The notes beneath the pieces are model-generated. The model was not told where the DNA came from, searched no databases, and saw only the letters and a list, made by a program, of their open reading frames with translations. A stretch of DNA of 16,242 bases from Fimbriimonadales bacterium (lineage in GTDB: Bacteria > Armatimonadota > Fimbriimonadia > Fimbriimonadales > Fimbriimonadaceae): NCBI GenBank assembly GCA_026392145.1, contig JAPLCS010000148.1, forward strand, positions 1-16,242. Reading direction: 5' to 3'. The position numbers and the translations under genes were made by a program. Numbering within the stretch: the first letter of the stretch is position 1; every line of letters begins with the position of its first letter. Positions 1-11,427 of this stretch are shown here, in pieces.

Positions 1-1144
1 GTCCCTTCATTTTATCCATAGAAACATTGAACCTCTCTGAAACGGCCAAAGCAATTTTCTGAAATCCCGGCTTTGAATAATCTGCCTGATAGTACTTCTC
101 AACTAACTTCTCGGCAAAATCAAGAGTAATTTCCTGATTCTGAATCGAGGCAAGGGCAATCATCTTAGTAATGGCGCCTTCAAGAACTCGGATATTTCCA
201 GGCACTGACTTTGCCAAGAACATTGCAACCTCAAACGGGAAAACAACTCCCTTAGCAACGGCCTTCGAAAGAATAATCGCACAGCGAGTCTCAGTATTGG
301 GGCTCAGGACATCTGCAACCAATCCACTTTCAAGGCGCGACCTTAGACGCTCATCCATCCGATAAATGTCTTTTGGTGGTCGGTCTGATGTCAAAACGAT
401 TTGATTACCGCCCTGATGCAAATAATTGAAAGTATGGAAAATCTCTTCTTGAGTCTTATCCTTTCCGGCTAAATGCTGAATATCGTCAAGCAACCAGACT
501 TTAACGTCTCGGTGTTGCCGGCGAAACTGTTCTACACGATTTGCTTGAAGAGCCAAAACAAAATCTTCGGCGAACTGTTGAGCCGAAATATAGGCAATGG
601 AAATCTTTGGATTGTTCTTTCGCAGTTCAGTGGCGATGGCATGCAACAAATGCGTCTTCCCCAACCCACTTGGTCCCCAAATGAAAAGAGGGTTATAAGT
701 GCCTCCTGGCTCAGAGGCGACCGCCTTAGCACCAGCAAATGCCAGTCGGTTGGTATCGCCGACTATGAAGTTTTCAAAATTAAATGACGGATTTGGCTCA
801 AAAGCGGTCGACTGAGAAACCACTTGAGGCGTGGCTACTACAGTAGTTGGCTCTTCGAGTTCTCGTTTTTCTCTTGGTCGAGCAACAATTTCCAGTTCAA
901 CCGAGTAACCGAGTTCATCGCTAATAAAACTCTGGAGCATTCCTGCAAATCGTTCACGCACCCACTCTTGCATGAATTTTCCAGGGGCAGCAAGCCGCAC
1001 AACATTCCCGTCCAATGACACAGGTTCCAAAGGCTTCAAGTACTTATTGACATGTGACTCATGGACCTCAGTGGCCAATCGTGCGAGTACATTTCGCCAA
1101 ACGACATGCAATTCGGAGTCATCAAAGGAAAACTGGTCTGACAT
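1..1144 (-). CDS. dnaA: Chromosomal replication initiator protein DnaA (partial, C-terminus off window)
   Basis: DnaA is the AAA+ ATPase that binds DnaA boxes and opens the replication origin. Reading the minus strand from ATG at 1144-1142 gives 381 codons with no stop before the left edge. Visible parts: domain I (about residues 1-87), a short variable linker (about 88-118), and the AAA+ domain III with Walker A GPSGLGKT (157-164), Walker B VWLLDDIQ (216-223), sensor-1 region LTSDRPP (251-257), the arginine-finger box ERLRSRLESGL (265-275) and sensor-2 region RVLEGAI (319-325). Only the start of the DNA-binding domain IV (from about 365) is in the window, so the HTH signature is not seen. 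The start is supported by a purine-rich GAAGAGA upstream and a perfect -10 box 45 nt upstream. It is divergent from thiN. The family assignment is very secure. Confidence 0.97.
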   Translation of the reverse strand, partial: MSDQFSFDDSELHVVWRNVLARLATEVHESHVNKYLKPLEPVSLDGNVVRLAAPGKFMQEWVRERFAGMLQSFISDELGYSVELEIVARPREKRELEEPTTVVATPQVVSQSTAFEPNPSFNFENFIVGDTNRLAFAGAKAVASEPGGTYNPLFIWGPSGLGKTHLLHAIATELRKNNPKISIAYISAQQFAEDFVLALQANRVEQFRRQHRDVKVWLLDDIQHLAGKDKTQEEIFHTFNYLHQGGNQIVLTSDRPPKDIYRMDERLRSRLESGLVADVLSPNTETRCAIILSKAVAKGVVFPFEVAMFLAKSVPGNIRVLEGAITKMIALASIQNQEITLDFAEKLVEKYYQADYSKPGFQKIALAVSERFNVSMDKMKG

Positions 1145-1355: not shown

Positions 1356-2012
1356 ATGGCAAAAAATGTGGTCGGAGTCCTAGGAGGAAACTACACATCA
1401 AGCAGAATCCTTACCGGTTGGCTATCAGAAGCAGACTGCATTATTGGTGCTGACTCCGGAGCACATAGGATTCGCGAATTGGGGTTCTTGCCCCACGTCG
1501 TCCTTGGCGATTTAGACTCAATCCACCTCGATTCTCTTGAGTTCTTCCAAAATAGTCCAACCGTAGACGTGATAGAAATTCGACATCAAGACATTACTGA
1601 TTGTGGAAAGTTGCTTTCATTTGCGGAGCAGCAAGGCATTACCAAACTTTTGCTCACTGGCACGGAAGGAGACCTCATGGATCATCAACTTGATGCCATT
1701 CATACAGCGATTAAATCGCCACTTGATATCACCTTCGGTCTTGAACGCGGAATTGGAGCGATTCTAAAGGGAGAAGTATCAAAGCAATTCCAAGTAAAGG
1801 AGGGTTGTCGTTTGTCTTTGATTCCCATCACTGAATCAACGTGCGTGCACCTCACCGGAGTGAAGTGGACTCTTGAAAACACCACCCTTTCTCCAACTGG
1901 GTCAACCAGCATTTCAAACATTGCCACCTCAGAGGTTGTACGAGTATCTATTGCCAGCGGGGCGGTCTATCTTTTCATCGAAGGCATCACCTCGTTTAGC
2001 CAATTGCCCTAA
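1356..2012 (+). CDS. thiN: Thiamine pyrophosphokinase
   Basis: Transfers pyrophosphate from ATP to thiamine to make the cofactor thiamine diphosphate, in the cytoplasm. The 218-residue product has the usual family length. N-terminal catalytic-domain motifs are present: ADSGA (32-36), GDLDSI (51-56), and HQDITD (77-82), matching the family's acidic Mg/ATP motifs. GDLMDHQL (105-112) occupies the place of the usual GxRxDH motif, with Asp-His kept. The C-terminal part (about 135-218) fits the beta-sandwich thiamine-binding domain. The first ATG has no visible Shine-Dalgarno; a TAnnnT hexamer ends 7 nt upstream. uvrB follows after 89 nt with its own likely promoter. No TPP-riboswitch-like structure was noticed upstream. 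Confident on family. Confidence 0.9.
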   Translation: MAKNVVGVLGGNYTSSRILTGWLSEADCIIGADSGAHRIRELGFLPHVVLGDLDSIHLDSLEFFQNSPTVDVIEIRHQDITDCGKLLSFAEQQGITKLLLTGTEGDLMDHQLDAIHTAIKSPLDITFGLERGIGAILKGEVSKQFQVKEGCRLSLIPITESTCVHLTGVKWTLENTTLSPTGSTSISNIATSEVVRVSIASGAVYLFIEGITSFSQLP

Positions 2013-2089
2013 ACTAACTCAAAAAGCGAAATTTATACGAATCAAGCTACGGTTGCACCCAAGGCATTCAATAAGCAGGCTTCAAGGCG

Positions 2090-2095
2090 TATATT
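2090..2095 (+). promoter_or_regulatory. Probable uvrB -10 element, leaderless spacing
   Basis: TATATT ends 6 nt before the GTG at 2102, so a transcript starting at the usual distance would begin at the start codon itself. There is no Shine-Dalgarno between -10 and start. A weak TTCAAT (2067-2072) lies at 17-nt spacing as a possible -35. Confidence 0.45.
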
Positions 2096-2101
2096 TACAC
2101 T

Positions 2102-4177
2102 GTGTCCATCGTAAAATTCGATAATCCCCTCGTGCTCAGTAACGACTTTGAGCCTAAAGGGGACCAGGGTTCGGCCATTGCAACTCTGGTCGATGGATTA
2201 GACAGTGGTTACCGTTTTCAAACTCTGCTCGGAGCTACGGGTACAGGCAAAACTTTTACCATGGCGTCCGTTATCAAGGAAACTCAAAGACCAGCGCTCA
2301 TCCTTGCCCACAATAAAACCCTAGCTGCTCAGCTTTGCCAGGAATTCAGAGCTTTTTTTCCAGAAAACTCAGTTCAATATTTCATCTCATATTACGACTA
2401 CTATCAGCCCGAAGCTTACGTCCCCTCAAGCGATCTGTATATCGAAAAAGACTCAAGTGTCAATGATGAAATAGAACGCCTTCGCCACGCAGCTACCCAT
2501 GCACTGCTTGAACGAAAAGATGTGATTGTAGTCGCCTCGGTTTCCTGTATTTACGGTCTAGGTTCACCGGATACATATGCTGAATCAGTTGTCACATTCG
2601 AAACAAATATGACCTTTGAACTGGATGCCGTACTCAAAAAACTTGTCGGAATGCAGTTCACCAGAAATGCAATGGTGCTAGAGCGCGGGACGTTCAGAGT
2701 GCGCGGCGACACCCTCGAAATTCAGCCCAAAGACGAAGAAATCGTAACACGAATAGAATTCTTTGGCGATACCGTAGAACGGATTCGACTCGTGGACCCA
2801 CTCACTCAAGAGGTCATAGATGAACCTCAAAAGGTAAGTATCTTCCCCGCTACACACTATGTAACTCCCTGGGAACGACTTGAAGCAGTGATAGACCAAA
2901 TCAATGAGGAGGTCTCCGCACAGGAAGCGTTGTTCCAAAGTCAAGGCAAACTATTGGAAGCACAACGTATCCGCCAGCGCGTCGAATTTGATCTTGAAAT
3001 GATGCGCGAAGTCGGTTATTGCAACGGAATCGAAAACTATTCTCGGTACTTCGACGGAAGAGCACCTGGCACCGCCCCTTACACGTTGCTGGACTTCTTA
3101 CCAAGTGATGCAATCGTATTCATAGACGAAAGCCACCAAACCTTGCCTCAAATTCGAGCCATGTACAACGGAGATAAACAAAGAAAATCCGTTCTCGTAG
3201 ATTACGGTTTTCGGCTTCCAAGTGCACTCGACAACCGACCACTAAAGTTTGAAGAGTTCCTTGAGCGAGTGCCGCAAGTCGTGTATGTTTCCGCAACACC
3301 TGGTCCGTTCGAAAAAGAGACGCAGGCGCAAATTGCCGAGCAAATCATCCGTCCAACTTACATCGTTGATCCTGAAATCGATATTCGTCCCACCACCGGA
3401 CAAATTGATAATTTGCTGGCGGAAATTCAGACGGTAGTGGCTAAGCAACAAAGAGTCCTAGTGACCACACTCACGAAAAAAATGGCGGAAGATTTAACAG
3501 GATATTTACAAGACCTAGGAATAAAAGTTAATTATATCCACTCTAACGTGCACTCTCTTGAGCGGCCTGAAATCCTTAGAGACCTACGTTTGGGTGTCTA
3601 TGACGTGGTGGTGGGCGTGAACCTTTTGAGGGAAGGTCTTGACCTACCTGAAGTTACTTTGGTGGCGATTCTGGATGCCGACAAAGAAGGATTTTTACGT
3701 TCTGAAACCTCACTCATTCAAACCATTGGACGAGCTGCTCGAAACGTAGACGGCAGGGTCATTATGTATGCGGATCGAATAACTGGTTCCATGGAACGCG
3801 CTATCGAGGAAACCTCAAGGCGACGAGCGGTCCAACTTGCCTATAACCAAAAAAATAGCACCGCGCCAATTACCATTAAAAAAGAAGTAAGAGAAACGAT
3901 TCGATCCTACGAAATGGTCGCCGAGATGGCTGCCCAATACACTCCAGATACTCAAGGAAGAGTTGGCGCAGACGGTGCACCGGTGAGAGTCGAAGACATT
4001 CCTTTGCTAATTGAATCGCTTGAAAAAGACATGAAAGACTTCGCCAAGGCAATGGAGTTCGAAAAAGCGGCAAATGTCAGAGACGAAATTGAATCGTTGA
4101 GAAAAATTTTAGGAACAAGCGATGGTCGCTTGGGTCAAGAGAAGCGAAAGGTCAGACGCTTTGCTTCACGAAAATAA
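2102..4177 (+). CDS. uvrB: UvrABC system protein B (excinuclease subunit)
   Basis: UvrB is the damage-verifying helicase-like subunit of nucleotide excision repair: it is loaded by UvrA and recruits UvrC for incision. The 691-residue product is full length. Motifs seen: Walker A GATGTGKT (44-51); the aromatic beta-hairpin that clamps [15 protein letters not shown] (97-108) onward; Walker B region FIDESH (340-345); helicase motif [10 protein letters not shown] (540-547); and a C-terminal UVR domain (about 636-672, rich in Glu/Lys with [11 protein letters not shown]) that contacts UvrC. Start is GTG: no other start fits better, the protein begins as other UvrBs do, and a -10 box sits exactly one leaderless distance upstream. 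uvrA and uvrC are not in the window. No motif is missing. Confidence 0.98.
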
Positions 4178-4188
4178 GCTTTGCTGAC

Positions 4189-4194
4189 TATAAT
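4189..4194 (+). promoter_or_regulatory. Probable -10 element of the glycosidase operon, leaderless spacing
   Basis: A perfect TATAAT sits in the 22-nt gap between uvrB and the glycosidase gene and ends 5 nt before its ATG at 4200. A TTCACG (4165-4170), inside the end of uvrB, lies 18 nt upstream as a possible -35. The downstream gene has no Shine-Dalgarno, so a leaderless transcript is the simplest reading. Confidence 0.5.
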
Positions 4195-4199
4195 GTCTT

Positions 4200-6107
4200 A
4201 TGGCGCTTTTGACAGCAGTTTTAGCTGCATCTGCACTGATACGGACTGGCTTCCCTAATCAGGCGAACACTGCTCCACAACCCATATGGCCTGGATTTGG
4301 AGTAAACATTCACTTTACTGATACATCTCAGGCTGAATTTAATTTGCTCAAGCGAGGAGGATTCCAATATGCACGAATGGACTTTAGCTGGGAGTCTATC
4401 GAAACTTCTCCGGCCCAATACAACTTCTCAGCGTATGATCGATTGCAGAAAAATCTTAGCGACCGAGGCATTCGACCGCTTTTCATACTTGGGTACGGAA
4501 ACAAACTGTACCAAGAGGGTGCCCCATCCACTCCACAATCTCAAACTGCGTTTGCTCAATTCGCTGCCGCAGCTGCAGAACATTTTAAGGGAAAAGAAAT
4601 TCTTTGGGAGATTTGGAACGAACCAAATCTCGGACAATTTTGGCAACCTTCACCCTCACCAGAAAGCTACCAATCCCTCGCGTTAAAGACTTCCGCGCTC
4701 ATGAAGCAAGCCGATCCGAGTTGCCGCATCATCGTGGGAGCAACATCAACAATGGATTACGACTTTCTCACGAGAACTCTCAATCGTCAATTACTCTCAC
4801 AGGTAGATGGTGTTTCAGTACATCCATATAGAACCGGAGGTCCCGAAAGTGTTTGGAACGAATACGGCAAGGTGAGAGGAATCATTGAAGCGAATGCTCC
4901 AGAGAACCGAAAAAATTTGCCAATTATCTGCTCAGAATGGGGATATTCAACCTATGCCAAGGGAGTCTCCGAAGGCAGACAGGCAATGTACCTGGTGCGT
5001 TCTTGGTTAATAAATGCCGCCGCTGGAGTTCCAGTCAGCATCTATTACGACTGGAAAGATGACGGTCCTAATCCTAATGAAAACGAACACAGATTCGGCA
5101 TCGTAACCGAAAAACTCAAGCCGAAGCCAAGCTTTTATGCCGCTCAATACATGCTTGCTACATTTGCAGGTTGTACGAATTTCAGAAAAGCAGTGACAAA
5201 TGACCCATTGAACTGGGTGATCGAAGCGGCTGGCGTAAACAAAATGGCGAGAGCAAGTTGGTACCAAAAAGAGGGAAACGTGCCGAAGTATGAAATCTTA
5301 AAGGTAAGCGATGGTCCAAAAATGTACGCCGAAATAATGGGACACACTTTTGGAGACCGTCCTCCCGTGAGTCGACTGCCAATGACCGTTGCCTTTGCAC
5401 CACCAATTGATAATGAGGGCTGGTGTGCACTCATTAAAAAACCAACTGCCGATTCTACAAAAGTAGAATTTAGGTTTAAGAAGAAGGATAACGGCGCAAA
5501 AGTTACGTGTTTTGCAACCGTTAATGGATTCAATGCCATCGAAACACTTGGGGCATCAGATATCGAGTCAGAGGTGTCAACAACCCTTCCAGGAATCCCA
5601 AGCTTCACAAGTAAGTTGAGTCTGTTGCACTTCAATCCAAATGATTGGCAACTCCAGTTATTTAGCGAAAACACCGCTCAACCACGCACAAACCTCACTG
5701 GTGAACCGGGAGTTTCAAAATTAACTTACCAATTCCCAAAGGGCTGGCAGTATGTGACTCTAGTTCCGAAGGAAACGTTCGAAATCCCCGCAAAAGCACG
5801 CCAAGCAGTGATTTGGGTGAAATCAGATCAAACTGGAAACATGCTCCGCTCAAGGTTCAGAGACGAAACCGGTCAAGTGTTTCAGGTTGACCTAGGGAGA
5901 TTGGACGAAGAAGTCATGAGAAAGGGCATGAAAGCGTTCGTCATTCCACTAGATGGAACTGGGATTGGGACGTATTGGGGCGGCTCCAACGACGGCAAAC
6001 CATCCGGCAAACTTTTTTGGGATGCCCTCCTCCTAATTGATTCGGCAAAAAGAGAAACCGGTAGCCAAGGTACGATTGAGTTCGGTCCGATTGCCTATGA
6101 GCTTTGA
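4200..6107 (+). CDS. Secreted clan GH-A glycoside hydrolase (GH39/PslG-like)
   Basis: Predicted exported retaining glycosidase acting on a beta-linked polysaccharide; the substrate cannot be told from sequence. Residues 1-27 look like a short signal peptide with a hydrophobic core, though without the usual N-terminal Lys/Arg. A TIM-barrel domain follows (about 30-330). It carries the clan GH-A catalytic pair: acid/base Glu141 in IWNEPN after strand 4 and nucleophile Glu246 in CSEWG near strand 7. Also typical are HPY (208-210) and the GFGVNIHF opening (32-39). The C-terminal 300 residues look all-beta and may be a carbohydrate-binding or jelly-roll module. No earlier in-frame start exists, because a TAA lies at 4191-4193. 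The last 11 nt overlap the next gene, so the two are probably co-translated. GH39 is a best guess; GH5 or another GH-A family is possible. Confidence 0.8.
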   Translation: MALLTAVLAASALIRTGFPNQANTAPQPIWPGFGVNIHFTDTSQAEFNLLKRGGFQYARMDFSWESIETSPAQYNFSAYDRLQKNLSDRGIRPLFILGYGNKLYQEGAPSTPQSQTAFAQFAAAAAEHFKGKEILWEIWNEPNLGQFWQPSPSPESYQSLALKTSALMKQADPSCRIIVGATSTMDYDFLTRTLNRQLLSQVDGVSVHPYRTGGPESVWNEYGKVRGIIEANAPENRKNLPIICSEWGYSTYAKGVSEGRQAMYLVRSWLINAAAGVPVSIYYDWKDDGPNPNENEHRFGIVTEKLKPKPSFYAAQYMLATFAGCTNFRKAVTNDPLNWVIEAAGVNKMARASWYQKEGNVPKYEILKVSDGPKMYAEIMGHTFGDRPPVSRLPMTVAFAPPIDNEGWCALIKKPTADSTKVEFRFKKKDNGAKVTCFATVNGFNAIETLGASDIESEVSTTLPGIPSFTSKLSLLHFNPNDWQLQLFSENTAQPRTNLTGEPGVSKLTYQFPKGWQYVTLVPKETFEIPAKARQAVIWVKSDQTGNMLRSRFRDETGQVFQVDLGRLDEEVMRKGMKAFVIPLDGTGIGTYWGGSNDGKPSGKLFWDALLLIDSAKRETGSQGTIEFGPIAYEL

Positions 6108-7056
6108 TTCCAACTCAATCCCAGCCAAGCTCATTCAACTTGCCCTCGGAGCAACCCCCTCACCAGACTTTTTCGCTCCCCACTCCTATTCAGAAGTAGA
6201 GCCTTTGGCGAGACACCATCGCCTGCTTTCCCTTGCGGCTCAATGCTTCCCTGAAAATCCACAAGCCATCGCAGACCAAAGACAAATTGCACTAAGAGAC
6301 CTACAAATCAAAGCACTCACAAGTAGCCTAAAAAGCCAACTAACCCAAGCAGGCATTCCCCACTGGGAGTTCAAAGGAGCAGCTTTGGGCGACCGACTAG
6401 GTGAAAAAGTTTCTCGTGAAAGCCGAGATATCGATATCTTAATCCCTCCACAACACTTTCATGACGCCTACTCAATTGTTGTTCAAGGCCGAACAGTTCA
6501 AGGTCCCGGTTACCCAGAAATTGGACCAGCCAATGATAAATGGCGGGCAGTAAAAGATGTTCGAATTCTCAATAACCAGCCAAATATAAAAATCGAGCTT
6601 CATTGGAGAATAACCGCAAAATACTTACATTTGGATATAAATGAACTCGTTTGGGAGGACATTTCTCAATCAGGAGATATCACCGATTCCCTATTATCAT
6701 GGATACTTTGCGTTCACGCAGCAGAACATGGATTTTACAGAATTCGGTGGGCCCGGGACCTGGCTATATTAGAAAAACAAGGCAAAAACCCGTTCAGCGT
6801 ATCGAAGCAACTTCCAAAAACGAATGCAGTCAGCCTTGTGGAACAGGCCATGCAAAAATTTAAGGATCCTAGCATTAGCCTATCTAACGCTCAACCTTCA
6901 AAATGGGTCGAAAAAGTCCTTTCCGGTTCGACCTCCCCTCCGACTTGGATAGAAGACCACAAAATGCGTTTTGAAATGTGCCCGACCCTCTCCAGCAAAC
7001 TTCATTTGCTCGTTTGTCTTGCAAACGGAAAACTCTTTCCAATCACAAAGATTTAA
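6097..7056 (+). CDS. NTP_transf_5-family nucleotidyltransferase (RiPP-cluster type)
   Basis: 319-residue protein resembling Pfam NTP_transf_5 (PF14907), a pol-beta-like nucleotidyltransferase family often found in lasso-peptide and related RiPP clusters and also in polysaccharide loci; its reaction is poorly known. Seen here: FKGAALGDRL (92-101) followed by RDIDIL (110-115), with Asp111 and Asp113 as the likely metal-binding pair; a third acidic residue in IELHWRI (Glu167); and HAAEHGFYRIRWARDLAIL (207-225), matching the family's helical C-terminal signature. All key residues appear intact, so it is probably active. I chose ATG 6097 because it gives an 11-nt overlap with the glycosidase stop. 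The longer frame from TTG 6037 would add 20 basic, unsupported residues. The PqqD-like gene follows after 21 nt. Confidence 0.75.
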   Translation: MSFDSNSIPAKLIQLALGATPSPDFFAPHSYSEVEPLARHHRLLSLAAQCFPENPQAIADQRQIALRDLQIKALTSSLKSQLTQAGIPHWEFKGAALGDRLGEKVSRESRDIDILIPPQHFHDAYSIVVQGRTVQGPGYPEIGPANDKWRAVKDVRILNNQPNIKIELHWRITAKYLHLDINELVWEDISQSGDITDSLLSWILCVHAAEHGFYRIRWARDLAILEKQGKNPFSVSKQLPKTNAVSLVEQAMQKFKDPSISLSNAQPSKWVEKVLSGSTSPPTWIEDHKMRFEMCPTLSSKLHLLVCLANGKLFPITKI

Positions 7057-7065
7057 GAAACTAGA

Positions 7066-7071
7066 TAAAAT
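7066..7071 (+). promoter_or_regulatory. Possible -10 element of the PqqD-like gene, leaderless spacing
   Basis: TAAAAT ends 6 nt before the ATG at 7078. ATCACA (7042-7047) lies 18 nt upstream as a possible -35. A Shine-Dalgarno role for AGGGAA (7072-7077) is also possible but it touches the ATG, which is too close. The gene may therefore have its own start of transcription inside the operon. Confidence 0.35.
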
Positions 7072-7077
7072 AGGGAA

Positions 7078-7374
7078 ATGAACGAGCGTCCGCACACTCA
7101 TTACAAAGCCAAGGACGGTGTTTTTCTCACTAGAGTTGGGGATGAAGGCATGATTCTAAATGGCAACAATGAGATGTGTTACCAGCTGAACACTACCGCA
7201 ACAAAAATGTGGGAGCAACTGGCAAAAGGTGTTTCGTTCCAAGAGGTGGTCCAACAAATCCACGTTGAATATAAGATAGATCAAGCAAGAGTTGAGAATG
7301 ACCTGGGATTGCTTATAGATGTACTCACTTCAAAGGGGTTGCTTTGCGAATCGTTCGAATCATCAAACGTCTAG
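7078..7374 (+). CDS. PqqD-family protein (RiPP recognition element, lasso B1-like)
   Basis: 98-residue protein of the PqqD fold (PF05402), a winged-helix-like RiPP recognition element that binds precursor leader peptides and presents them to modifying enzymes. Seen: the beta-rich N-terminus FLTRVGDEGMILNGNNEMCYQLN (16-38), then helices with TATKMWEQLAKG (40-51), SFQEVVQQI (53-61), and the closing segment VENDLGLLIDVLTSKGLL (72-89), which match the family pattern. The next gene, a B2-type protease, overlaps its end by 31 nt; this pairing is the standard lasso-peptide B1-B2 order. No pqqA, B, C or E is nearby, so a role in PQQ synthesis is unlikely. Family confident; the partner peptide is unknown. 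Confidence 0.8.
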   Translation: MNERPHTHYKAKDGVFLTRVGDEGMILNGNNEMCYQLNTTATKMWEQLAKGVSFQEVVQQIHVEYKIDQARVENDLGLLIDVLTSKGLLCESFESSNV

Positions 7375-7736
7375 CAAAAGTCCCAACAGTTTGGTGGAAT
7401 CTACAACGATGTAACCTTTCACTAAAGTCAAATGGATACAAAGTTACAGCAACAAAAAGTTGGAGTAACAATCTGGAGTGCTTCACACAAGCTGAAATTA
7501 TCCAAATTCATTCCATAGCCGGAAAGTTATCACCATGGACAACTTGCCTCAGGCGCTCATTACTTCTCAAAGACGATATCCAATCGATTGGAAAACAAGC
7601 GGCACTCGTCCGAGGGGTCATGCAGGGACCTAACAATAAAATGCTTCTCCACGCCTGGGTAGAGGTTGAAGGAAAAGTCGTAGGTGATAACGTAAATTAC
7701 GTCTCAAAATACTCAAAAATTAACGATGAAGTATGA
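7344..7736 (+). CDS. Lasso peptide biosynthesis B2-type protease (McjB C-terminal / Transglut_core3)
   Basis: 130-residue cysteine protease of the transglutaminase fold (PF13471) that removes the leader peptide from RiPP precursors, best known from lasso peptides. The catalytic triad is visible: Cys68 in PWTTCLRRSLLL, His103 in LLHAWVEVEG, and Asp115 in KVVGDNV. The spacing and surrounding residues fit the family, as does the length. The N-terminus (IIKRLAKVPTVWW) is basic and hydrophobic, as in other B2 proteins. Start is TTG 7344: a strong Shine-Dalgarno AAAGGGG (7332-7338) lies 5 nt upstream, and no ATG fits. The 31-nt overlap with the PqqD-like gene implies translational coupling. A cyclase gene, the usual third partner, is absent from the window. 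Confidence 0.82.
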   Translation: MRIVRIIKRLAKVPTVWWNLQRCNLSLKSNGYKVTATKSWSNNLECFTQAEIIQIHSIAGKLSPWTTCLRRSLLLKDDIQSIGKQAALVRGVMQGPNNKMLLHAWVEVEGKVVGDNVNYVSKYSKINDEV

Positions 7737-7784
7737 ATCAGTGCCACGAAAGACACATTCAAATTAGAATCAAAATTCAATACC

Positions 7785-7790
7785 TAATCT
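7785..7790 (+). promoter_or_regulatory. Possible -10 element of the cytochrome gene
   Basis: TAATCT ends 7 nt before GTG 7798, an alternative start of the cytochrome gene, so leaderless initiation at GTG is possible. If ATG 7819 is used instead, the leader would be about 20 nt with AAAGAG (7808-7813) as Shine-Dalgarno. Weak hexamer match. Confidence 0.25.
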
Positions 7791-7818
7791 CAATTGGGTG
7801 CAAGATGAAAGAGTGCCA

Positions 7819-9372
7819 ATGAAACCTAGCAGAGAAAAGCGGTCCAAGCCATTCAAACTCTACAGTTTGGCGGGGCTTACCCTCGGCGGTGTTGCATTCA
7901 GCACGGTAGAGAGAAAACAGTTTTCCGACCCTTACATCCAACCCGAAGGCAAAAAACTTGAATCTGACATCCTATCGGAAGGGCTGAAAATCTGGAGAAA
8001 GCCAGGAGCAATCCAAAATGGCGCAGCGTGTGCGACATGTCACAGCCCAGACGGAATAGAACTCGCGGCATATAATTTCACCGACCAGGACATCACTCGC
8101 CGGGCACTTCCTCACGTTTCACAAGATGAAGCACAAGTTCTTGTTCAATACATCCATACGCTGCGAGCAAAGTACCAACTGACAACTCTGAAGAGTCCAA
8201 TGGAAGATCGACCCTTTCAGCCAGGAGGTTCCGTCTTGCCAGGAGTCACAGCCACTGAAAGAGATTTTGAGTTCAGCAAGCAACTAGCCACAAAGTTACC
8301 ACTGCTTTTTGGTAAACCAATCACCACCTTCGAACAAGCCAAGGCAGCTGAGCGCGAGCTATTGTCACTTGAGCCAGGAAAGCTCAGGATAGGGATTCCA
8401 CTGAACCGACTCGCTGAAGATGCATTTCACGGTAAAGAGCATGGCACTATCGCCCAATGGTTCCCCGAGGAGCCACCCAGCGTTTCGAACCAAGATCTAG
8501 AAGAATGGTACGCAGCGGAAGATAGTTACCTAGCTAATCCATCTCAAGAAGAACTTCATAAACTGCTATTGCTCCATTCAAAACTGGTCAATACGAACCG
8601 ATTGGCAGGATTTGCCGCCCTAAGCGCAATAAAGTTTCGCGCGAACCTCATCTTTCAACACCGACTGAGAACAAAGACCGATACGCTAGTTTCCAATCTA
8701 TCCCCAGAAGTAGCAATTTACCAAAATTTCAACCCCATGTGGGAGGTGGGCGAATTTGCGAGACAACTGATTGGTCGCCAACCAGAAGATATTGGAATGG
8801 ACCCCAAAAGCCATCAAAAGAAGCTTGCTGGTCCAACTTTCAACGAGCAACTACGATCCCTAAGAACCTCATGGTTTTGGGCAGGGTGGCTACAAGATCA
8901 AGGTCTATTCAGAACCAATCGAGATGACAAAACAAGATTAGGGCTTTGGTTTAATGAAAGTCTGCTCGAAGACGGTCCCTACACCATGCATAACTTTTTT
9001 GCGAACACAAGACGCCAAGCAGTAATTTCTAACGATGTAGGCTCATGGGCTGAAACCATCGCTCGAAAAAGAAGAATCTGGGACTATGCTGGGTTGAGAG
9101 CTTTTCAAAATCTGTACAAAGGAATGCCAGCAGATCCTTTCCATCGAAAGCTAATTACAACCTTTGCCTGCAACTGCTTCCGTATGAACCTGTTGTTGCT
9201 CACGGAAGACATCAAAAAATCTGGTTGGGTCTGGATAAAAATCAGTTCCAAATCCAACAGTTCTGAATTGCTTGACTTCATAGTCTCCCAACAACCCGAA
9301 ACAAAAGCCCAAACCGAAAAACTCCGAAAGGAACTATTTTCACTCATTGATACAGCAAAAGAGCGACCCTAA
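7819..9372 (+). CDS. Exported c-type cytochrome domain protein, large unknown C-terminal region
   Basis: 517-residue protein with a basic N-terminus (KPSREKRSKPFK) and a hydrophobic segment (about 14-27) that should export or anchor it in the membrane. A single haem-c site CATCH (71-75), preceded by GLKIWRKPGAIQNGAA and followed by SPDGIEL, marks a small cytochrome c domain over roughly the first 120 residues. The axial Met is not certain; PMEDRPF near residue 130 is one candidate. The remaining 380 residues are mostly helical and rich in Trp, Arg and Leu, with no domain I recognise. I prefer ATG 7819, with AAAGAG 5 nt upstream; GTG 7798 would add seven residues. It follows the B2 gene by 82 nt and converges on the propeller gene, with a hairpin between. 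An electron-transfer or oxidative role is inferred from the haem site only. Confidence 0.75.
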   Translation: MKPSREKRSKPFKLYSLAGLTLGGVAFSTVERKQFSDPYIQPEGKKLESDILSEGLKIWRKPGAIQNGAACATCHSPDGIELAAYNFTDQDITRRALPHVSQDEAQVLVQYIHTLRAKYQLTTLKSPMEDRPFQPGGSVLPGVTATERDFEFSKQLATKLPLLFGKPITTFEQAKAAERELLSLEPGKLRIGIPLNRLAEDAFHGKEHGTIAQWFPEEPPSVSNQDLEEWYAAEDSYLANPSQEELHKLLLLHSKLVNTNRLAGFAALSAIKFRANLIFQHRLRTKTDTLVSNLSPEVAIYQNFNPMWEVGEFARQLIGRQPEDIGMDPKSHQKKLAGPTFNEQLRSLRTSWFWAGWLQDQGLFRTNRDDKTRLGLWFNESLLEDGPYTMHNFFANTRRQAVISNDVGSWAETIARKRRIWDYAGLRAFQNLYKGMPADPFHRKLITTFACNCFRMNLLLLTEDIKKSGWVWIKISSKSNSSELLDFIVSQQPETKAQTEKLRKELFSLIDTAKERP

Positions 9373-9386
9373 CTGAGAGTCGCTCT
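9360..9386. terminator. Hairpin between convergent genes
   Basis: AGAGCGAC (9360-9367) pairs perfectly with GTCGCTCT (9379-9386) around an 11-nt loop that contains the stop codon of the cytochrome gene. On the minus strand the stem runs straight into TTTTGC, so it is a better terminator for the propeller gene than for the cytochrome gene, where only TCTTCAATG follows. It may serve both. Confidence 0.5.
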
Positions 9387-9414
9387 TCAATGTCTTGCGT
9401 CTGAGGGTGAGCTA

Positions 9415-11427
9415 TCAGCTTCCTACAACGTTCAAGTAATCAAGGTTGAGAGTAAATGGCGCCGGAGCAAGTCGACCAGGGGTCACACCTCTCACCAAAA
9501 CCTTCACCTTTCCATAAGCATCAAAGTACTGAGGACTGTTCTTAAGTGTTGCACTCAATCGAGTCGAACCTGCAGTAAAGGCTGTGGTGCTCACCAGAAC
9601 ATATTGTGAAGTCACAAAGTTGAACGCATACATTTGGGCCGTACCACCGTTTACACCCAATACATTAGCGGTAATCGCAAGGTTAGTCTTGTCTGTCCCA
9701 ATAATGTATCCAACTTCAATGGCAGCCACTTGGCCTGCGGTCGAAAGCATTGACATCACCGAGAAGTATTTGGAGTCTAGATACCAAATATCAGAAAGGC
9801 TCCCAGAACTCGACTTTCCTTGATACATGCTAATGTCACTAGCGCCAGGGGTACCAATAGCAAAGAGAATACAGTTGTTCATGGCGTACAACTTTCCGTC
9901 CGGGCCAATCGCCGTTGAAGTGTAAGCCTCACCCGTAGGCGGTTGAAGATTCAAATCCTCAACGAGCTTGTTAGTAACAAAACTCCACCGGTACATGTGT
10001 CCGTCCTCACAGTTAACAATTGCACTCTTTCCGTTCACATCAACTGCAGCAGCATTGATACACCACTCGTGTCGAGCATCTGGTTTAGCAGGGTCGTCAT
10101 TGGTTCGATTCGGAGCCACTACCGTCAAAATTTCATTCATGACCGCAATTCCCGACTGTCGATCTTTAGTAATCGAATCCGAAGATGGATCAAGTACGGC
10201 CAACATATTTTGACCATCCGCACCTGGGTCTCCACCCATGTCGTAGTTGTTATACTTGGTCAAAATTAAGTAGGGAGAAGTTCCTTTATAGCTTGGCACG
10301 GCGCTTGATGGAACCACCGAAGGTGTATCATCCCATCCGAAAGCACCCGCAGGGAATCGCTTTCCACTCGAGTTATTCGGGTTCAAGTTCCCATCAAACT
10401 GAAGCATCCAACCGTGACTCTGTCGCCATTGGTTCCCAAAAACTCCCATGAAAACATGTCCATCTGGTGCCACCATCGGACACGCGGATGATTCATTAAT
10501 GAGCGAGGCATTGGCACCTGGAATCGAAGGATCGGTTAATCGAACACTGGCGGTGGCGGCAAGGGAATTTGCATCCAACTTTGCCAGCATCCCCACCCCA
10601 CCCGTCAACGCAACATAGACCGACTTCTCATCAACACTGAGCGCTGGCCCCGCACTCCGAGCAGGTCGAGAAAGACTTCCACTGATTCCGAGCGCCTGAA
10701 CAGACTTGAAGGTCGAAACTCCAGTGGTTGCGTTTACTTTTGCAATCCCTCCCGTACCAAGATTGGCCATATTGGAAGGTAGAGAGCCTGTCACTTCGTA
10801 GCCAAAGTACAAGTTCCCTTGCTTGTCACTTGTCAGAGGAGTGTTGATCTTAATGACCGAATAAGTAGCCTTGTTCGCATTGAAGTCAGCTTGAGTGGTG
10901 TAAAAAGCAAACCGGTTGGTGGCGCTCGTCGTTGCATCAGCTGAACTACGCACCCAAACAGAGCCTGCCGCTCCAGCAGCAGCCACTCCAGTTCCACCCG
11001 TCACTTGGCAAAGTGTAGTCGGATAGGTTGTGGTCCAGCCATTTGGATAAATCTGGGGTGAGCTGTAATCAGTATCGAATGACCATGTCATGCTCCCATT
11101 GGAGCCATTGCGACCAATCATTCTCCAGTTATCGTAGGGACTACTACCACTACCGCCATTTTTGGTGAACCGATAAGCGTAAACCACGGTATTGGCAGAC
11201 GAAATCATGGGGCTGGCGAAGTGAGCCAATACGCTCCCACCGTAGTAACTCCGGTTGTCATCGAGCGAAGCTTGCCATTGAACTCGACGTGCGGGCTGAC
11301 TTGTACCGACATAAACTCCAGAGTGCTGAGCATTTCCGCCAACGCATTCCCAACTCTTGGTAGCCTGACCAAATCCTGCGAAAGGCAACGAACCAAGAAC
11401 GATCGCAAATGCCAAATTCCGAATCAT
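9415..11427 (-). CDS. Secreted PQQ-like beta-propeller repeat protein
   Basis: 670-residue protein with a clear signal peptide (residues 1-22: MIRNLAFAIV core, cleavage likely near GFGQA). The mature start, WECVGGNAQHSGVY (26-39), is the usual opening of PQQ-like/pyrrolo-quinoline quinone repeat propeller proteins. Repeated blade-like strands follow with phrases such as GGIAKVNATTG, KSVYVALTGGVGMLAKLD, GHMYRWSFVTNKLV and GKLYAMNNCILFAIG. The last 100 residues (about 570-670) look like a separate beta domain, perhaps for surface attachment or sorting. No catalytic Asp/Glu set or adjacent Cys pair of true quinoproteins is recognised, so it is probably a structural or binding protein. It is convergent with the cytochrome gene. 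Start ATG 11427 is preceded by a TACAAT box and a perfect 12-bp palindrome. Function unknown. Confidence 0.8.
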   Translation of the reverse strand: MIRNLAFAIVLGSLPFAGFGQATKSWECVGGNAQHSGVYVGTSQPARRVQWQASLDDNRSYYGGSVLAHFASPMISSANTVVYAYRFTKNGGSGSSPYDNWRMIGRNGSNGSMTWSFDTDYSSPQIYPNGWTTTYPTTLCQVTGGTGVAAAGAAGSVWVRSSADATTSATNRFAFYTTQADFNANKATYSVIKINTPLTSDKQGNLYFGYEVTGSLPSNMANLGTGGIAKVNATTGVSTFKSVQALGISGSLSRPARSAGPALSVDEKSVYVALTGGVGMLAKLDANSLAATASVRLTDPSIPGANASLINESSACPMVAPDGHVFMGVFGNQWRQSHGWMLQFDGNLNPNNSSGKRFPAGAFGWDDTPSVVPSSAVPSYKGTSPYLILTKYNNYDMGGDPGADGQNMLAVLDPSSDSITKDRQSGIAVMNEILTVVAPNRTNDDPAKPDARHEWCINAAAVDVNGKSAIVNCEDGHMYRWSFVTNKLVEDLNLQPPTGEAYTSTAIGPDGKLYAMNNCILFAIGTPGASDISMYQGKSSSGSLSDIWYLDSKYFSVMSMLSTAGQVAAIEVGYIIGTDKTNLAITANVLGVNGGTAQMYAFNFVTSQYVLVSTTAFTAGSTRLSATLKNSPQYFDAYGKVKVLVRGVTPGRLAPAPFTLNLDYLNVVGS
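10340..10362. repeat. 23-bp exact direct repeat, copy 1 (inside propeller gene)
   Basis: This 23-bp stretch, starting AAAGCACCCGCAGGG, recurs exactly at 11532-11554 in the spacer upstream of the gene. Read on the minus strand it encodes KRFPAGAF of the propeller protein. The bases on either side differ between the two copies. Confidence 0.85.

Follow-up and report, generated by a model that had tools for sequence, protein, structure and literature searches.

Three consecutive genes on a 16,242-base contig of a Fimbriimonadales bacterium (JAPLCS010000148.1, the whole of which is referred to here as the window) are tentatively read as an orphan cassette for maturation of a ribosomally synthesized and post-translationally modified peptide (RiPP), one derived from phospho-lasso machinery, serving in trans a peptide whose gene lies elsewhere, and probably leaving that peptide linear. 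The genes encode a nucleotidyltransferase (N), a discrete RiPP recognition element (RRE; B1), and a leader peptidase (B2), in the order N-B1-B2 (Table 1). In the proposed mechanism, B1 would bind the YxxP-type leader of that peptide, B2 would remove this leader by means of its Cys-His-Asp residues, and N would move a phosphate-linked group (hexose or nucleotidyl, as for PsmN) onto the peptide. The product would most likely stay linear, because neither a cyclase nor a kinase was found in the available 90% of the genome. The trio itself is a sound observation and not a product of chance; the pathway served by this lone locus is uncertain.

Table 1. Coordinates of features in the window
Feature	Positions	Strand	Evidence
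N, NTP_transf_5 nucleotidyltransferase (PsmN/LppN-like), 319 residues	6097..7056	+	PF14907, 69.7 bits (cut-off 31.2)
B1, PqqD-like discrete RRE, 98 residues	7078..7374	+	PF05402, 42.6 bits (cut-off 23.4)
B2, leader peptidase (Transglut_core3), 130 residues, TTG start	7344..7736	+	PF13471, 47.2 bits (cut-off 26)
Putative low-G+C stretch varying between strains (last two thirds of N, PqqD, B2)	6436..7795	+	Allele comparison, G+C scan
Glycosidase (GH5/GH39-like)	4200..6107	+	PF00150, 36.6 bits; PF01229, 27.5 bits
29-codon open reading frame	7733..7822	+	Sequence only; no RRE motif
CxxCH protein ("cytochrome")	7798-9372	+	CxxCH motif read by eye
Partial dnaA, at the left edge of the contig	2-1144	-	Bac_DnaA, 204.9 bits

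All three proteins exceed the Pfam cut-offs in hidden Markov model searches, in agreement with a first-pass annotation that had been made from the sequence letters without database searches. B2 also passes the cut-off of the NCBIfam model for lasso B2 peptidases (NF033537, 44.9 bits versus 33); the nearest NCBIfam models for the PqqD-like protein are those of lasso pathways (NF033530/NF033536), at scores below their cut-offs, and no NCBIfam model matched N. Three residues of N (R107, D111, and D113) fall in invariant columns of a 14-row family alignment and a fourth (E167) in a nearly invariant one, so that all four may be catalytic. The B2 triad named in the first-pass annotation (C68, H103, and D115) is located as claimed. 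Across 12 aligned rows C68 and H103 do not vary, and an Asp at +12 from the His is not general, this position being Glu in G073 and Gly in L032 and G092 as counted by eye (G and L numbers denote genomes and loci, respectively, and G000 is the genome of the window). The B2 gene begins 31 nucleotides inside the end of the PqqD gene, as previously described, if TTG 7344 is taken as the start. The AlphaFold2 model of N has a mean pLDDT of 84.9. Its nearest PDB folds are nucleotidyltransferases, at weak scores (best E 0.022, none <=0.001), B2 gave weak matches to cysteine-peptidase, arylamine-acetyltransferase, and transglutaminase-like folds (best E 0.027), and PDB sequence searches returned no match.

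The window represents the entire contig C150 of a 2.56-Mb metagenome-assembled genome (437 contigs, 89.88% complete, 3.07% contaminated). Neither a cyclase nor a recognizable precursor is present within 2 kb of the trio, as had been noted before. Across the assembled genome, the sole match to the asparagine synthase family PF00733 scored 24.7 bits; it was rejected as a cyclase, since by eye its frame is NAD synthase-like (NadE). The same model recovered the lasso-type cyclases of two genomes from the same family, G073 and G169, at 97.1 and 98.5 bits, so a cyclase on the G000 contigs should have been detected. The earlier suggestion that the cyclase lies elsewhere in the genome thus met only NadE within the assembly, and such a gene could still lie in the part that the assembly lacks. 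Likewise, an eight-row HprK profile found no HprK-type kinase in G000 (best score 20.3 bits), and it gave 99.5 bits for the kinase of G169, which is outside the profile rows. Small open reading frames of YxxP type in the window were rejected as precursors, being on the minus strand, inside genes, or devoid of the rest of the motif; none of YxxPxL type occupies a credible position on the plus strand. A nine-row precursor profile, which retrieved the sequences it was built from with E values of 3e-9 or lower, gave a best E of 0.74 in G000, in a frame that is not precursor-like; this is a weak test, as the profile missed the G214 candidate described below.

Sets without a neighboring cyclase recur in the phylum. 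Among 291 genomes searched with NF033537 (E <= 1e-7, all matches above the cut-off), B2 was found in 18 genomes at 20 places, and 19 stretches plus the window were compared by a six-frame scan with home-made profiles for five families. A cyclase-like gene is present in eight of the 20 stretches (G215, G118, G119, G101, G127, G128, G126, and G073), one B2 gene is located at a contig end (G169), and 11 stretches contain no cyclase (G264, G247, G246, G248, G249 twice, G250 twice, G214, G092, and G000); within this last group, the stretches of G214 and G250 (both places) come from short contigs or lie close to an end, and the window flanks span only 6 and 8.5 kb. G264 and G247 possess B1, A, K, N, and B2 (A, K, and C denoting the precursor, kinase, and cyclase genes), while G246 has the N-B1-B2 order of the window, as confirmed by Pfam and NCBIfam (161.4, 59.0, and 53.7 bits). 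In cyclase loci, B2 and NTP_transf_5 lie in one frame in G215 (L171, 9524-11149, plus strand), as are PqqD and B2 in G128 (L179, 9768-10829, plus strand).

Ten genomes were scanned with PF00733 in full. No match above 30 bits was found in G000, G264, G246, G248, G249 (98% complete), or G214. Weaker matches above the low cut-off of the model fall in frames of 214-371 residues, many with SGGxDS-type starts like those of NadE, QueC, LarE, and MnmA (by eye), and one falls in a 547-residue frame of G248. G247, G092, and G250 together have seven matches scoring over 200 bits; these were considered as lasso cyclases acting in trans and rejected. Each of the seven is matched best by the XrtA/PEP-CTERM amidotransferase model, at scores under the cut-off of that model, and the asparagine-synthase cut-off is exceeded by six. 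The home-made cyclase profile also matches all seven and cannot, by itself, separate lasso cyclases from asparagine synthases. G092 has one further match, at 52.8 bits. Second pairs of B2 and HprK-like genes occur in G249 and G250 (L185, 9869-11242; L186, 1229-2632) next to a glycosyltransferase-like gene (by eye); no PqqD or precursor was found at these pairs.

In a B2 tree of 21 rows including Fictibacillus, for which cyclase labels were assigned beforehand, the rows of G264, G247, G246, G248, G249 (both), G250 (both), and G214 are separated from all others by a branch with support 96/98; five of the seven genomes involved are among those with no PF00733 match above 30 bits. None of these nine has a cyclase nearby, versus 10 of the 12 other rows if G169 is counted as having one or nine of 12 if it is not (Fisher p 0.0002 and 0.001, respectively, uncorrected for kinship); the two rows without a cyclase outside the clade are G092 and the window. 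The window B2 groups with G073 and G169 (84/73), and with G101 once those two are removed (89/89), on the lasso side both times, with a branch length of 2.3-2.4 changes per column. Its forced placement in the cyclase-free clade was not rejected by the approximately unbiased test (p-AU 0.107), nor was a grouping of all 11 cyclase-less rows (p-AU 0.0985). The window PqqD joins four lasso rows (89/95; flagged for long branches), and the window NTP_transf_5 joins Fictibacillus (86/85), neither grouping being starred. The firmer result is the cyclase-free B2 clade; the window could lie inside or outside it.

Candidate precursors were compared with respect to their capacity for ring closure. All cut sites are predictions, made with the lasso rule of Thr at -2 (PMC10885120) or the alternative of Ile/Val at -2 (PMC10368454). 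All nine cores predicted at cyclase loci or in cyclase genomes have an Asp at position 8 or 9: AGPGLKTPD.. (L032), GQGFGSGAD.. (L172), ASRVGSKLD.. (L176), LSPGTNID.., ISAGSFID.., GSPGTAID.., and ALAGTGID.. (L171), GAGSATNVD.. (G073), and NTGPSTTND.. (G169). For the last two, Ile/Val(-2) was chosen because Thr(-2) would place the Asp at 11. The L171 precursors form a lasso-type array of four in G215 (3645-4831, plus strand), each predicted to have its core Asp at position 8. No precursor was found in cyclase loci L173, L178, L179, and L181.

For cyclase-free genomes, the predicted cores are GTVSGE and GLESRTG (G264), QGGSLITGASFF (G247), and VSSPNPPPLNPPGGPFLSY (G214), the last of these spotted by eye beside an HprK-like gene, with B2 on another contig, and matched by no NCBIfam model. 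In none of the four is a ring of 7-9 residues with a tail to thread possible; under an Ile(-2) reading, the first G264 peptide would have Glu at 7 as its last residue and hence no tail. Ser occupies core position 4 in three of the four, and the fourth has Ser at 2 and 3. The leaders of both G264 precursors (21.0 and 21.3) and of the G247 precursor (20.1) pass the NF033521 cut-off of 19, and the first residue of the leader motif [Y/F]xxP is Tyr in G264 and Phe in the other two genomes, G247 and G214. No precursor was found at the remaining cyclase-free loci, including those of G246 and the window. The sets with apparently non-ring-forming peptides suggest a little-known route to short linear peptides. 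The earlier proposal of a cyclase-free pathway accordingly gains from the B2 clade and from the precursors of these distant relatives, but the window B2 is nearer to lasso B2s. At L174 (12060-12543, minus strand), two near-identical precursor genes and a truncated third lie between PqqD and HprK, with predicted cores of six and seven residues.

Among known systems, the clusters for linear polyphosphorylated peptides (LPP) described from Bacillota in 2026 contain an RRE, an HprK kinase, an NTP transferase, a SpI-like peptidase, and a transporter without a cyclase (PMC13381572), indicating that RRE-K-N pathways lacking a cyclase do occur. In LPP, core Ser3 is phosphorylated, and the authors confine the class to Bacillota (PMC13381572). 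The window shares with LPP a discrete RRE and an NTP transferase without a cyclase, and in the relatives G264 and G247 the resemblance extends to an HprK-like kinase, a leader of [Y/F]xxP type, and a Ser at one of positions 1-4 of the predicted core. In contrast, the LPP protease is the signal-peptidase-I-like LppS, whereas the peptidase beside the window RRE is B2, and the window has no adjacent kinase or precursor. The relatives thus point to a B2-using, cyclase-free variant of LPP-like RiPPs, of which the window may or may not be a member. No description of a B2-based set without a cyclase was found in the literature searched, which was mostly available as less than full text.

Phospho-lasso clusters of the pseudomycoidin/paeninodin type resemble the window in their B1, B2, and N genes (the Fictibacillus locus L032 reads C-A-K-B1-B2-N, plus an ABC transporter by eye) and differ from it in that no C, A, or K is present in the window. 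For PsmN, addition of one or two hexoses to the pseudomycoidin phosphoserine was reported in vivo, with its assignment as glycosyl- or nucleotidyltransferase unsettled (PMC8498205, PMC9266682). By this analogy, itself unsettled, the nucleotidylation once proposed for the window is less likely than hexose transfer to phosphate. The G246 set (L182) is identical to the window in gene order, with no kinase or precursor found within the 20 kb examined. However, its proteins are 17-23% identical to those of the window, its B2 falls inside the cyclase-free clade and that of the window outside, and its HprK-like gene is on another contig beside a radical-SAM-like gene. A set of PqqD-like (by eye), HprK-like, and radical-SAM-like genes is located on G246:C156 (L251), apart from N-B1-B2. 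As wider background, an uncharacterized nucleotidyltransferase was noted in ~30% of the genomes studied in rumen bacteria with lasso clusters (PMC7533575), only ~4,000 of almost 8,000 discrete lasso-type RREs co-occur with a peptidase and a cyclase according to the authors of RRE-Finder (PMC7470986), lasso clusters have already been reported from Armatimonadetes (PMC7298704), and four clusters, of a type not stated in the accessible portion of the source, were counted in that phylum (PMC8692599).

The N gene was found to be a mosaic among strains. Its homologue search returned its own 98% cluster (74 members), P0003 (two members; located on a 312,851-base contig), P0004 (18 members), and three distant proteins. 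Residues 1-113 are identical to P0003 and P0004 at 108/113 and 109/113 positions (96%), and residues 114-319 at 53/197 and 54/197 (27%); P0003 and P0004 agree with each other at 110 of 113 positions up to residue 113 and then at 153 of 199. The boundary lies right behind the DxD motif S-R-D-I-D (111-113), the shared part being DNA positions 6097-6435. On the predicted model, the switch would fall within the nucleotidyltransferase palm, at strand 111-115, and not between domains. The simplest reading of these alignments would be a recombination that exchanged the rest of N, possibly along with the PqqD and B2 genes, which would then vary together with the C-terminal part of N. The best low-G+C segment of 1356-9372 is 6536-7795 (41.4% versus 46.6%), a contrast that is supportive only, since it was reached by three of 100 block shuffles, which were scanned with a coarser step. 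Searches with PqqD and B2 returned nothing beyond their own clusters, and among 20 genus genomes a P0003 relative was found only in that of the window (1/20). Intact alleles of the window type fall into clusters with 74, 17, 14, and 10 members (97-98% identity), and both other NTP alleles are likewise intact over their full length. This speaks against decay, in line with what had been argued earlier from the intact residues.

None of the other 19 genus genomes has a B2 above the NF033537 cut-off, and only G073 and G092 do so, besides the window, in a larger set of relatives. PF13471 matches in 39 other relatives were rejected as B2 kin; among the matches listed, nearly all are in frames of ~450-590 residues and not stand-alone B2 proteins. 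The G073 cyclase is lasso-type (best model NF033535, 108.6 bits, below its cut-off of 525); the same contig also encodes PqqD, B2, an HprK-like kinase, and a precursor candidate. An opposite-strand gene separates C, A, and K there from B1-B2, and NTP_transf_5 of G073 lies on a different contig. In G169, a congener of G073, one contig holds K, A, and C, and the B2 gene sits at the edge of a second contig; NF033535 is again the best model for the cyclase (159.9 bits). These lasso-type clusters (L113/L188 and L253) belong to the same family as the window, whose B2 groups with both and whose PqqD groups with that of G073, on long branches; they differ from the window in having a cyclase, a precursor candidate, and a kinase. 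Of the refuting observation named in the first-pass annotation, a cyclase and a precursor adjacent in close relatives, no instance was seen in the genus, where no other genome has a B2 above the cut-off, and one was seen in the same family, with a precursor candidate, on a single contig of G073.

The divided layouts of G073 and G169 bear on the possibility that the window belongs to a split lasso pathway, in which an ordinary, possibly phosphorylated lasso peptide would be made with an A-K-C module located in the tenth of the genome that was not assembled or not binned. The lasso-side placement of B2 and PqqD and the fragmentation of the assembly are consistent with such an arrangement, yet the assembled genome yielded neither cyclase nor kinase, and with B2 above the cut-off in 0/19 other genus genomes, no genus member shows a full set; this explanation is possible but doubtful. 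The very long branches of all three proteins, together with the lasso-side placement and the missing precursor, would also fit the relic of a lasso cluster that lost its cyclase and precursor locally, the remainder being kept by chance, kept as an immunity trait, or on its way to loss. Three intact frames, clusters of 10-74 near-identical sequences, and two further full-length NTP alleles make such a relic unlikely. It is improbable that the set was repurposed without any ribosomal peptide product, for instance to modify proteins in connection with the glycosidase or with sugars of the envelope: the glycosidase overlap and the occurrence of NTP_transf_5 and PqqD (once with an HprK-like gene) beside Wzz-like genes (by eye) in L118 and L119 may hint at this, but B2 exceeds the lasso B2 cut-off and is directly coupled to an RRE, and glycosidase homologues in seven genus loci are unlinked to such genes. 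At L119, a radical-SAM-like gene is also present.

Several observations weigh against the reading of the trio as an orphan cassette with a linear product. B2, PqqD, and N of the window group with rows from lasso loci (cyclase loci or Fictibacillus) and not with the cyclase-free clade, although long branches render these placements less than decisive. In addition, neither the window nor G246, which has the identical gene order, yielded a precursor, and no kinase was found for the window, although PsmN acts on phosphoserine. Finally, 10% of the genome is missing from the assembly, and the precursor search of the remainder had little power.

A broader proposal, held with considerable reserve, is that a cyclase-free RiPP class exists outside Bacillota, in which a lasso B2 releases short linear peptides, such as those predicted for G264, G247, and G214, and an early serine of these carries a phosphate-linked group. 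In this scheme, the window would be a trans-acting N-B1-B2 member, with recombination immediately after the catalytic DxD exchanging its specificity half among strains. If B2 peptidases regularly act without a cyclase, calling a pathway lasso from B1/B2 alone would be an error across one clade of genomes, the same enzyme kit would have short linear phospho- or phosphoglyco-peptides as a second output, and LPP and lasso pathways would be alternative ends of one leader-recognition system. G264 and G247 would then provide ready-made precursor and enzyme sets.

The plus-strand order in the window is thiamin pyrophosphokinase, uvrB, glycosidase, N, B1, B2, and the CxxCH protein. Both neighbors of the trio had been named before. 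The glycosidase assignment stands, and its gene end overlaps the start of N by 11 nucleotides, tying the set to it; the "cytochrome" does not, as the protein gave no Pfam match and offers only CxxCH. Four intrinsic-terminator-like sites in 4000-9500 are all on the minus strand, and with none on the plus strand a single transcript over the region is plausible. The glycosidase is perhaps on the same transcript as the trio, its membership in the pathway being unproven. It was rejected as a conserved partner, because its homologues in seven genus loci have different surroundings with no such genes linked. The 29-codon frame after B2 shares an ATGA with the B2 stop at its start and another with the ATG of the following gene (7819) at its end; it is unproven as a gene and may have arisen by chance. 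It was rejected as a precursor, as it has no RRE motif and no Asp/Glu at 7-9 after a visible Thr or Ile/Val(-2) cut. A defense-system reading was dropped after PADLOC returned nothing, and general scans of the window proteins recognized no ABC transporter to correspond to the MsbA-like one of LPP clusters. No DnaA boxes of pattern TTWTNCACA were found in the window; the trio is located ~5 kb from the partial dnaA gene.

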